Source: Stappia sp. | GTDB taxonomy: Bacteria > Pseudomonadota > Alphaproteobacteria > Rhizobiales > Stappiaceae | Assembly: GCF_040110915.1 (NCBI RefSeq) | Contig: NZ_CP157793.1 | Span: 2,802,939-2,866,938 of the forward strand | DNA: 64,000 bases | Reading direction: 5' to 3' | Shown: positions 35,478 through 48,478 of the stretch, in pieces | Position numbering within the stretch: position 1 is the first letter of the stretch | Layout: each line of letters starts with the position of its first letter | Position numbers and translations under genes: made by a program | The notes under the pieces: model-generated | What the model was told of the DNA's origin: nothing | Seen by the model: only the letters and a program-made list of their open reading frames with translations | The model's database searches: none

Positions 35478-36695
35478 ATGACGACCGCCGACGCCTGGTC
35501 CGCGACGCCGCCCACGGCCATCCTCGTGCTGGCCGACGGCACCATCATCGAAGGCCAGGGGTTCGGCGCGACCGGCCAGGCCTGCGCCGAGGTGTGCTTC
35601 AACACCGCCCTCACCGGCTACGAGGAAATCCTCACCGACCCGTCCTATGCCGGGCAGATCGTCACTTTCACCTTCCCGCATATCGGGAACGTGGGGACGA
35701 ACGACGAGGATGTCGAGACGGTCAACATGGCCGCCGCCTCGGGCGTGCGCGGCACCATCGTGCGCGCCGACGTCAGCGAGCCCTCCAACTACCGCGCGGC
35801 GCGCCACTTCGACGCCTGGCTGAAGGCGCGCGGGATCATCGGCCTTTCGGGCATCGACACCCGGGCGCTCACCGCGCTGATCCGCGAGACCGGCGCCGCC
35901 AACGCGGTGATCGCGCATGATCCCGACGGCAACTTCGACAAGGACGCGCTGAAGGCAGCGGCCGCGAACTGGCCCGGGCTCGTCGGCATGGATCTCGCCA
36001 AGGACGTCACCGCCGGCCAGAGCTACGGCTGGACGCAAACGCCCTGGGAATGGAACAAGGGCTACGGCGAGCGCACCGACGGTCCGTTCAAGGTCGTGGC
36101 CATCGACTACGGCATGAAGCGCAACATCCTGCGGCTTCTGACCGATGCCGGCTGCGACGTCACGACGCTGCCCGCGACCGCCACCGCCGAGGAGGTTCTG
36201 GCCCACGATCCGGACGGCATTTTCCTGTCGAACGGCCCCGGCGATCCGGCGGCGACCGGCGTCTACGCGGTTCCCGAGATCCGCAAGCTGGTCGAAAGCG
36301 GCTTGCCGGTCTTCGGCATCTGCCTCGGCCACCAGATGCTCGCGCTGGCGCTCGGCGCAAAGACCGTGAAGATGCACCAGGGCCACCACGGCGCGAACCA
36401 TCCGGTCTTCGACCGCACGACCGGAAAGGTCGAGATCACCTCGATGAACCACGGCTTCGCGGTCGACCGCGAGACGCTGCCCGAGGGCGTGGAGGAAACC
36501 CACGTATCGCTGTTCGACGGCTCCAACTGCGGGCTTCGGCTGGGCGACCGGCCGGTGTTCTCCGTGCAGTATCACCCGGAAGCCTCGCCCGGACCGCGCG
36601 ACAGCCACTATCTCTTCCTGCGCTTCACCAACCTGATGCGCGCCCGCAAGGGCCAGCAGCCGGTGGCGGAAAAGGCCTCCGCGCCGGCCGCCTGA
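35478..36695 (+). CDS. carA: Carbamoyl-phosphate synthase small subunit
   Basis: The glutamine amidotransferase subunit (405 residues) that feeds ammonia to CarB for pyrimidine and arginine synthesis. The N-terminal CPSase small domain has LADGTIIEGQGFG and FNTALTGYEEILTDPSYAGQ. The class I amidotransferase domain has the nucleophilic cysteine in VFGICLGHQMLALA and the His-Glu pair in YHPEASPGP. ATG at 35478. Its partner carB begins 3.3 kb downstream on the same strand, separated by three regulator genes. Confidence 0.97.
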   Translation: MTTADAWSATPPTAILVLADGTIIEGQGFGATGQACAEVCFNTALTGYEEILTDPSYAGQIVTFTFPHIGNVGTNDEDVETVNMAAASGVRGTIVRADVSEPSNYRAARHFDAWLKARGIIGLSGIDTRALTALIRETGAANAVIAHDPDGNFDKDALKAAAANWPGLVGMDLAKDVTAGQSYGWTQTPWEWNKGYGERTDGPFKVVAIDYGMKRNILRLLTDAGCDVTTLPATATAEEVLAHDPDGIFLSNGPGDPAATGVYAVPEIRKLVESGLPVFGICLGHQMLALALGAKTVKMHQGHHGANHPVFDRTTGKVEITSMNHGFAVDRETLPEGVEETHVSLFDGSNCGLRLGDRPVFSVQYHPEASPGPRDSHYLFLRFTNLMRARKGQQPVAEKASAPAA

Positions 36696-36724
36696 GGGCG
36701 GGCGCAGTCCGCACGCAACGCAAC

Positions 36725-36756
36725 AAAAAACGCCGGGTCGCCCCGGCGTTTTTTTT
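36725..36756. terminator. Bidirectional terminator between carA and merR-family gene
   Basis: Stem CGCCGGG (36731-36737) with CCCGGCG (36742-36748), 4-base loop, six A on the left and eight T on the right. It serves carA on the plus strand and the converging regulator gene on the minus strand. Confidence 0.92.
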
Positions 36757-46090: not shown

Positions 46091-47056
46091 ATGGCCGAAC
46101 AGCACCACAAGCTCCTGATCGTCGGCTCCGGTCCCGCCGGCTACACCGCCGCCGTCTATGCCGCGCGCGCCATGCTCGAGCCCGCCCTCGTGACCGGCAT
46201 CCAGCCCGGCGGCCAGCTCACCATCACCACCGATGTGGAGAACTACCCCGGCTTCGCCGACCCCATCCAGGGCCCCTGGCTGATGGAGGAAATGCGCAAG
46301 CAGGCGGAAAACGTCGGCACCGCGCTGATCTACGACACGATCCTCGAAGCCGACCTGTCGACACGGCCCTTCCGTCTCGTCGGCGACAGCGGCACCACCT
46401 ACACCTGCGACGCGCTGGTGATCGCCACCGGCGCGCAGGCCAAGTGGCTCGGCCTGCCGAGCGAGGAGGCCTTCATGGGCGCCGGCGTCTCGGCCTGCGC
46501 GACCTGCGACGGCTTCTTCTACCGGGGCAAGGAGGTGATCGTGGTCGGCGGCGGCAACACCGCCGTGGAGGAAGCGCTCTATCTCTCCAACCTCGCGTCC
46601 AAGGTCACCGTGGTGCACCGCCGCGACGAATTCCGCGCGGAAAAGATCCTGCAGGACCGGCTGTTCAAGTCGGACAAGATCGAGGTCGTGTGGGATAGCG
46701 TGGTGGAGGAAGTGCTCGGCGGCGGCGTGCCGAAGACGGTGACCGGCGCCCGCATCAGGAACGTCAAGACCGGCGAGACGCGCGATCTGGCGGCCGACGG
46801 CTTCTTCGTCGCCATCGGCCACGCACCGGCCGTGGAGCTGTTCAAGGATCAGGTGAAGATGAAGCCGTCCGGCTACATCTGGACCGCGCCCGACAGCACG
46901 CAGACCTCGATCCCCGGCGTCTATGCCGCCGGAGACGTGACCGACGAGGTCTACCGCCAGGCCGTGACGGCGGCGGGCATGGGCTGCATGGCGGCGCTCG
47001 AGGCGGAGCGTTTCCTCGCCGAGCAGGACGTTGCCGGCGCAGCAGCCGCCGAATAA
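46091..47056 (+). CDS. trxB: Thioredoxin reductase
   Basis: A 321-residue FAD/NADPH enzyme that reduces thioredoxin. FAD motif [17 protein letters not shown] (residues 11-27), active-site disulfide C136-C139 in [16 protein letters not shown] motif [13 protein letters not shown], and C-terminal FAD contact [26 protein letters not shown] at 46091 follows GGGAGACAC. A LysR-family gene follows 46 bases downstream on the same strand, a conserved alphaproteobacterial pair. Confidence 0.97.
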
Positions 47057-47102
47057 CCTCATAGACCCGAAGCCCGACCGAAGACCGCGAGGCCAGATCA
47101 CC

Positions 47103-47999
47103 GTGCCGTTGGACTGGGACAAACTGCGCATCTTTCATGCGGCTGCGCAGGCCGGCAGCTTCACCCATGCGGGCGAGATGCTGAACATGAGCCAGTCGGC
47201 GGTGAGCCGGCAGGTGAGCGCGCTGGAACACGACCTCAAGGTGCCGCTGTTCCACCGCCACGCGCGCGGCCTGTTGCTGACCGAGCAGGGCGAGGTGCTC
47301 TATCGCACCGCCCGCGAGGTGTTCATGAAGCTGGAGGCGGCGCAGACGCGGCTGACCGACAGCCGCGAGAAGCCGAGCGGGGCGCTGCGCGTGACCACCA
47401 CCGTGGGGCTCGGCTCCACCTGGCTCACCCAGCGGCTGAACGAATTCGTCGACATGTATCCGGAGATGGAGCTGCGCCTCATCTTCGCCGACGACGAACT
47501 GGACCTCAGCATGCGCGAGGCGGACGTGGCGATCCGCCTGCGCCAGCCGACCCAGCCGGACCTGATCCAGCGCAAGCTGTTCACGGTGCACTTCCACCTG
47601 TTCGCCGCGCCCGCCTACATCCAGCGCTTCGGCGCGCCGGCCTCGATCGACGATCTGGACGGTCACCGCATCATCACCTTCGGCGAGCACGCGCCCTCCT
47701 ACCTGCGCGACATGAACTGGCTGGAGACGGCCGGCCTGCCGGCGGGCCAGCACCGCAGGTGCGTGCTGCGCATAAACAACGTCGTGGCGATCCGCCGCGC
47801 GGTGCAGCGCGGCATCGGCATCGCGCTGCTGCCCGACTACATCAACGAGGAGGGCTCGGGCCTGGTGCAACTGCTGCCCGAGGCGGCGGTGCCGAGCTTC
47901 GACACCTATTTCGTCTATCCCTCGGAACTCAGGAACACCGCCCGCGTCATGGCCTTCCGCGACTTCCTGTTCTCCAAGGCCGAACGCTGGACGTTCTGA
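47103..47999 (+). CDS. LysR-family regulator linked to trxB
   Basis: A 298-residue LysR protein: winged helix WDKLRIFHAAAQAGSFTHAGEML with SQSAVSRQVSALEHDLKVPLF, then a substrate-binding domain. The GTG at 47103 is preferred because relatives begin with a short P(L/I)DWDKLRIFH segment and GAGG lies upstream; a TTG at 47031 would overlap trxB. No OxyR-like cysteine pair is present. The conserved position after trxB suggests a link to redox or thiol control, but targets are unknown. Confidence 0.88.
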   Translation: MPLDWDKLRIFHAAAQAGSFTHAGEMLNMSQSAVSRQVSALEHDLKVPLFHRHARGLLLTEQGEVLYRTAREVFMKLEAAQTRLTDSREKPSGALRVTTTVGLGSTWLTQRLNEFVDMYPEMELRLIFADDELDLSMREADVAIRLRQPTQPDLIQRKLFTVHFHLFAAPAYIQRFGAPASIDDLDGHRIITFGEHAPSYLRDMNWLETAGLPAGQHRRCVLRINNVVAIRRAVQRGIGIALLPDYINEEGSGLVQLLPEAAVPSFDTYFVYPSELRNTARVMAFRDFLFSKAERWTF

Positions 48000-48016: not shown

Positions 48017-48064
48017 CCAGAGAGCGTGCCAGAGAGCGTGCCAAGGAGTTTACCAGGGAGTTTG
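48017..48064. repeat. Four-copy 12-bp tandem repeat after lysR
   Basis: CCAGAGAGCGTG occurs twice exactly (48017-48028, 48029-48040), followed by two diverged copies CCAAGGAGTTTA and CCAGGGAGTTTG. It begins 17 bases after the lysR stop codon. Confidence 0.9.
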
Positions 48065-48306
48065 CCAAGCGTACCGCAGTTCCCCGGCCCCCCACAGACA
48101 ACAGCCGGACCGGACCCGTCGTGCCGCGACAGCGGCACGGCGGGTCCGTCTTGGCCTTCGCCTTTGCTCGGATCCTGAGCAAAACGCCCGCGTTTCAGGC
48201 AACAACCGCCCATCTGCAATGCACCGCACAATCGGGATCTGCGCATTCTGACAAGGCCCTTGGCCAGCTACCCGCTAAATGCATATCTGCATTGCGAGAC
48301 TGCTTC

Positions 48307-48335
48307 TTGATTAAGCGCGTTGTGCACTGCATATA
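48307..48335 (+). promoter_or_regulatory. Promoter of the anti-SD small RNA
   Basis: TTGATT (48307-48312) and CATATA (48330-48335) separated by 17 bases make a good sigma-70 promoter. Transcription would begin near 48342. Confidence 0.75.
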
Positions 48336-48341
48336 AGCAAC

Positions 48342-48478
48342 AGGCTGTTGGTCTGCTTCGTCGCTTCCTCCTCCCAGCGACGTGTGATGCGACCAGCTGT
48401 TCCCCTCTGGAAGGTGATTGCGCCACGCAAGTGGCAAAATCAAATAACTGCCGGGCCTCATGGCCCGGCATTTTTTTT
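48342..48478 (+). ncRNA. Small RNA with CCUCCUCCC anti-Shine-Dalgarno loop (alpha-r14/suhB-like)
   Basis: A transcription unit of about 137 bases with no reading frame. Hairpin 1: stem CGTCGCT (48359-48365) with AGCGACG (48376-48382) presents TCCTCCTCCC in the loop, complementary to ribosome-binding sites. It is enclosed by TGGTC (48349-48353) with GACCA (48391-48395). A second hairpin GCCAC-GCAA-GTGGC lies at 48422-48435, and a strong terminator ends the unit. The loop motif and layout resemble the alphaproteobacterial suhB (alpha-r14) family; CcsR-type RNAs share the motif. It would act as a trans-acting, probably Hfq-linked, translational repressor. Confidence 0.72.
48449..48478 (+). terminator. 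Rho-independent terminator of the small RNA
   Basis: Perfect 9-bp stem TGCCGGGCC (48449-48457) with GGCCCGGCA (48462-48470), loop TCAT, then eight T residues. Confidence 0.93.

Follow-up and report, generated by a model that had tools for sequence, protein, structure and literature searches.

Genes and features of the locus

The window analysed here is a stretch of 64,000 nucleotides from a single-contig Stappia genome of 4.67 Mb. On its forward strand, the genes for a thioredoxin reductase (trxB) and a LysR-type regulator (lsrB/vtlR) are followed by a small RNA (sRNA) gene, downstream of which lies a gene for an AraC-type regulator (Table 1). The closest named relatives of the LysR-type protein come from Stappia strains (84–92% identical), and its structural match, 9HH1, is the cryo-EM structure deposit of Agrobacterium tumefaciens LsrB (PMC11975290). 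Two cysteines of the A. tumefaciens protein, C144 and C273, have been called conserved and implicated in redox sensing (PMC11975290). We found that C144, C236, C244 and C273 are all replaced in the window LsrB and in 69 aligned relatives; the redox-switch model as published therefore cannot be carried over without modification, and the signal sensed by Stappia LsrB may differ from that of A. tumefaciens. Short degenerate direct repeats (gagagcgtgcca / gggagtttgcca) occur directly after the lsrB stop codon (48020–48070). Further past lsrB, a strong GC-rich hairpin without a T-run lies at 48106–48152. Its similarity to the F6 model is weak and no better than chance; this hairpin is possibly the end of the lsrB transcript.

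Table 1. Features of the trxB–lsrB–sRNA region, in window positions
Feature	Coordinates	Strand	Remarks
trxB, thioredoxin reductase	46091..47056	+	TIGR01292, 409 bits (cut-off 343); conserved trxB-lsrB-abcR order
lsrB/vtlR, LysR-type regulator, presumed activator	47082..47999	+	9HH1 match of 424 bits across 299 residues; start codon unsettled
Predicted LsrB/VtlR box, GCATATCTGCATTGC	48281..48295	+	First 13 bases a perfect GCAT-N3-TG-N3-T; –61..–49 of the inferred start
Promoter	48306..48335	+	CTTGAT(T) –35, CATATA –10, 17-nt spacer; position conserved in relatives
AbcR (alpha-r15, RF02345) sRNA gene	48342..48478	+	About 137 nt; start deduced from the –10 element and LsrB-box spacing, end from the U-run
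Stem-loop 1, lower and upper stems	48347..48397	+	Displays aSD1; compensatory changes in both stems
aSD1, CUCCUCCC	48368..48375	+	Holds most of Brucella M1 (CUCCCA, 48371–48376)
aSD2, GUUCCCCUCU	48399..48408	+	Holds M2 (GUUCCC); stretch nearly invariant in 40 relatives
Stem-loop 2	48415..48442	+	Sequence variable; hairpin in nearly all relatives
Intrinsic terminator	48449..48478	+	9-bp stem, U8

A first-pass annotation of this DNA had proposed a complete sRNA gene at 48307–48478. All the sequence elements that it named were found in place, and the fold, conservation and covariation of the element exceed chance. Its promoter (TTGATT-17-CATATA) is indeed present, with TTGATT at 48307–48312 and CATATA at 48330–48335 separated by 17 nt. 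A generic sigma-70 scan of the region did not call this promoter, and its support is therefore comparative: the distance between the –10 element and a box upstream of it is constant in 69 of 71 distinct relatives. The box had been missed in the first-pass annotation. In Sinorhizobium meliloti, the LsrB consensus is GCAT-N3-TG-N3-T at –61 to –49 (PMC8844928). In the window, GCATATCTGCATT (48281–48293) matches this consensus perfectly and implies a start at 48342, seven bases past CATATA; the predicted Stappia box thus occupies a position identical to the published one. The pattern GCAT-N3-WG-N3-TGC was found 47–49 bases upstream of the –10 element in 69/71 distinct copies, with a background of 0.12 per kb across the same loci.

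The 137 nt from position 48342 fold at –58.5 kcal/mol, compared with –41.4 ± 3.9 for shuffled sequences (z = –4.4; 0 of 200 shuffles as stable). The 7-bp hairpin with an anti-Shine-Dalgarno loop proposed earlier, CGTCGCT/AGCGACG (48359–48365 with 48376–48382), was recovered and exposes UCCUCCUCCC. Hairpin 1 is longer than had been described, with a lower stem (48347–48356/48389–48397) that co-varies too, and in the folding calculations aSD1 is fully open. A second conserved anti-Shine-Dalgarno motif, aSD2 GUUCCCCUCU, had been overlooked. Its mean unpaired value was 0.53 in the window copy and 0.66 over relatives, and the folding suggests that it may be partly shut in a small UUCC/GGAA hairpin in the Stappia lineage. 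The second hairpin had been described as GNRA-capped, and GCCAC-GCAA-GTGGC does lie at 48422–48435, but the tetraloop is not conserved (GCAA, GATA, TTAG, CTAG and others). Hairpin 2 is rebuilt from a different sequence in nearly every relative; its pairs are misaligned in the MAFFT alignment, and it was assessed by folding each sequence singly. From stem-loop 2 to position 48448 runs an A/U-rich linker resembling the Hfq site of AbcR RNAs, which is an A/U-rich stretch (PMC3712013). The predicted terminator was likewise verified, with a 9-bp stem (48449–48457/48462–48470) followed by eight T. Three terminator-like sites were counted in the region, two of them being the abcR stem on both strands, compared with 0.5 in shuffles.

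Conservation and autonomy of the element

We compared the element with its counterparts in related genomes. Pairing is kept in 97.9% of cells across 40 relatives, with double changes at 13 of the 21 pairs (0/500 shuffles); neither shuffles nor slides, used as covariation controls, came near the observed pairing. The stems vary with compensation, while AGCTGTTCCCCTCTGGAAGGT is almost wholly invariant in the same 40 relatives. DNA similarity detected the element in 28 of the 41 genomes of a first set of relatives, and it lies downstream of lsrB in most of 80 named loci. A tandem duplication of abcR, with copies about 277 bases apart, was specific to the lineage of S. taiwanensis and one relative. 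Each tandem copy of the S. taiwanensis lineage has a promoter and an LsrB-type box, but one C has been lost from aSD2.

Since the element sits between lsrB and the AraC-type gene, it might be read as the lsrB 3′ UTR or as a leader of the AraC-type gene, or, with mechanical ORFs crossing it on both strands, as a small-protein gene. However, it comes with a conserved promoter, an activator box and a terminator of its own, the last of these ahead of the AraC-type gene, and more than 2 kb separates it from lsrB in Labrenzia sp. 011 and others, which makes it autonomous. The claim that no reading frame is present was too strong as worded, although the crossing ORFs are not conserved, and single-base indels among congeners break any frame. 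A UTR, leader or small-protein gene is accordingly scarcely credible. We conclude that 48342–48478 is a genuine, autonomous sRNA gene, and that it belongs to the already known AbcR family rather than to a new one.

Assignment to the AbcR family

AbcR is a regulatory RNA of alphaproteobacteria that lowers nutrient-uptake proteins. In Brucella AbcR, loop 1 holds the motif M1 (CUCCCA), and M2 (GUUCCC) occupies the stretch separating hairpins 1 and 2 (PMC5461406); S. meliloti AbcR carries aSD1 CUCCUCCC and aSD2 UUCCCCUC (PMC8844928). In the Stappia gene, M1/aSD1 is found in loop 1 and M2/aSD2 between hairpins 1 and 2, within a three-hairpin fold that includes an A/U-rich stretch and an intrinsic terminator. 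The gene lies next to lsrB/vtlR and after trxB, where canonical AbcR genes lie. Its anatomy, synteny, conservation, covariation and complementarity can be read directly from the sequence.

The Rfam model of the family, RF02345 (alpha-r15), scored the locus at 25.6 bits, under its gathering cut-off of 40, which is a detection threshold set by curators and not a biological feature; for this reason, Stappia abcR is unannotated. In Oryzibacter (43.6) and Pleomorphomonas (42.5), the same locus does pass this threshold. We also used a covariance model, R1, for which the training set consisted solely of Stappiaceae-group copies, with no alpha-r15 seed. R1 scored the window abcR at 132.9 bits, although this sequence was in its training set, and it gave hits in 54 of the 150 genomes searched from this order. 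By manual count, about 21 of 24 RF02345 hits coincide in their coordinates with R1 hits in the same genomes, canonical alpha-r15 genes from other families among them. R1 recovered all three canonical alpha-r15 genes of one genome (112–127 bits), which belongs to another family; two of these genes (127 and 119 bits) form a tandem pair next to trxB-lsrB, and the first copy has the same box at –61. Because nearby families pass at the same locus and R1 recovers canonical members, the sequence comparisons indicate that the low RF02345 score is a matter of model coverage and not of missing homology. We regard this reciprocal finding by R1 as decisive for the AbcR family. Elsewhere in the genome, a second RF02345 hit (1964116, 20.4 bits) was rejected as false, with no AbcR motifs seen in AbcR position. 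R1 also gave a weak match at window positions 36656–36756 (21 bits, E 0.0024), probably a chance GC-rich hairpin.

The first-pass annotation had noted a resemblance to the suhB/alpha-r14 family. An alpha-r14 (NfeR1-like) RNA would repress through repeated CCUCCUCCC loops, and the loop CCUCCUCCC at the locus is identical to the alpha-r14 motif; however, RF02344 gave 26.4 bits, under half of its cut-off of 58.8. The genome holds two true alpha-r14 genes about 0.6 kb apart, at 1699991–1700114 and 1700740–1700862 (76.8 and 74.3 bits), each with three CU-rich anti-Shine-Dalgarno loops, compared with one CCUCCUCCC-type loop at the locus. Thus, alpha-r14 RNAs share this loop with the window RNA but differ in having three of them, another hairpin order and another genomic place. 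The synteny of the window gene is also wrong for alpha-r14, and the gene carries aSD2 together with an LsrB box. The difference in scores and the gene order rule out alpha-r14 identity, which we consider extremely improbable. The suhB half of the resemblance was indirectly apt. In a joint scan with other Rfam models, the suhB model (RF00519) had no match at the locus up to E ≤ 1, nor was one listed as suppressed, but S. meliloti AbcR1 and AbcR2 (SmelC412, SmelC411) have been listed as RF00519 hits (PMC2873474), and partial homology to SuhB has been described for alpha-r15 (PMC7143759). The correct assignment is alpha-r15/AbcR. A CcsR-like relationship had also been suggested for checking; RF02791 was without a match at the locus up to E 1. 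CcsR RNAs have the CCUCCUCCC motif in common with the window RNA, and weak CcsR matches were found only at the alpha-r14 loci. Matches to F6, anti-hemB, isrK, SorX and ncS011 were far under their cut-offs.

Predicted targets and comparison with known AbcR systems

It had been proposed that a large number of messages with strong AGGAGG sites could be repressed by the RNA. Pairing at Shine-Dalgarno sites is well supported, but the proposal was too general. We compared 51 substrate-binding-protein genes with 239 background genes and found that their aSD2 pairing energy was not stronger (P = 0.11; P = 0.46 with correction for Shine-Dalgarno strength), but a few of them show long and specific complementarity. 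The 9-mer CAGAGGGGA, the complement of UCCCCUCUG in aSD2, is present at seven genomic sites, one of which is the sRNA gene. Of the other six, three lie just upstream of a start codon, and two of these three belong to substrate-binding-protein genes: urtA (TIGR03407, 574 bits, cut-off 493) and an oligopeptide-type binding protein. The third gene encodes an EAL-domain-like protein, a label based on reading its sequence. With ten occurrences of the reversed control pattern, the count of CAGAGGGGA itself is not raised; the point of interest is the start-codon placement, which was noticed post hoc.

At the urtA ribosome-binding site (3301372–3301380), the complementarity to aSD2 extends to 11 nt (CAGAGGGGAAC). 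Among the other Stappia genomes with one abcR copy, urtA leaders were recovered from 10, and all 10 keep the 9-nt urtA site CGCGACAGAGGGGAA, although some of this conservation may stem from the Shine-Dalgarno core and from the genomes being related. The CAGAGGGGA site is missing before urtA in two genomes whose AbcR lost one aSD2 C. These observations point to urtA (urea transporter) as the best candidate among predicted AbcR targets, with the oligopeptide-binding protein next. A trans-acting RNA of AbcR descent might instead have lost its transporter role and repress any message with a strong Shine-Dalgarno sequence, in line with the generic anti-Shine-Dalgarno character of aSD1 and with the overall lack of enrichment of transporter genes. 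However, the near-invariant flanks of aSD2 and the conserved 9-nt urtA site favour specific targets, and we consider such a generic repressor unlikely.

Taken together, 48342–48478 is very probably the single abcR gene of a Stappia-type genome. It would be orthologous to the AbcR1 genes of Sinorhizobium, Agrobacterium and Brucella, and probably encodes an LsrB-activated repressor acting at ribosome-binding sites. In the AbcR model that we propose, LsrB, encoded just upstream, would bind the box at 48281–48295 and activate the sigma-70 promoter, giving a 137-nt RNA with three hairpins that would offer two sites for pairing: aSD1, carried by the first loop, and aSD2, in the segment that joins hairpins 1 and 2. 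Together with Hfq, on which Stappia AbcR probably depends by analogy with its relatives, aSD1 and aSD2 would pair with the ribosome-binding sites of selected mRNAs. The chief targets would be ABC-transporter substrate-binding proteins (urtA as best candidate, then the oligopeptide-binding protein), and pairing would block translation and favour mRNA decay. For Stappia abcR, we infer transcription, LsrB binding, Hfq binding and repression from the family. We tentatively suggest, as a possible though doubtful extension, that the Stappiaceae circuit has kept the DNA box and the RNA while its input and aim have changed, and that an LsrB lacking the redox cysteines and a single AbcR with a urtA-tuned aSD2 might couple a non-redox signal to nitrogen scavenging.

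These results extend AbcR, well studied in host-associated bacteria, to the Stappiaceae, for which we found no published description of AbcR, a weak indication given the limited reach of our literature search. The Rfam alpha-r15 model overlooks most Stappiaceae abcR genes. The conserved part of the circuit, LsrB box and AbcR, is also set apart from the redox cysteines, for which these relatives show no conservation, and urtA provides a concrete testable target.

Compared with AbcR1/AbcR2 of Brucella abortus and A. tumefaciens (PMC5461406, PMC7486931), the Stappia RNA has the same M1 in loop 1, the same M2 between hairpins and the same adjoining VtlR gene, whereas the Stappiaceae fall outside the host-associated species studied and a host role is not evident here. 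Compared with S. meliloti AbcR1 (PMC8844928, PMC3712013), the genome studied here has a single copy instead of a tandem pair, and its RNA is 137 nt rather than 121, with a longer first stem of other sequence and a score below the Rfam cut-off. The two nevertheless share the place after lsrB, the LsrB box at –61..–49, the three hairpins, aSD1 CUCCUCCC, aSD2 UUCCCCUC, the A/U-rich stretch and the U-tail.
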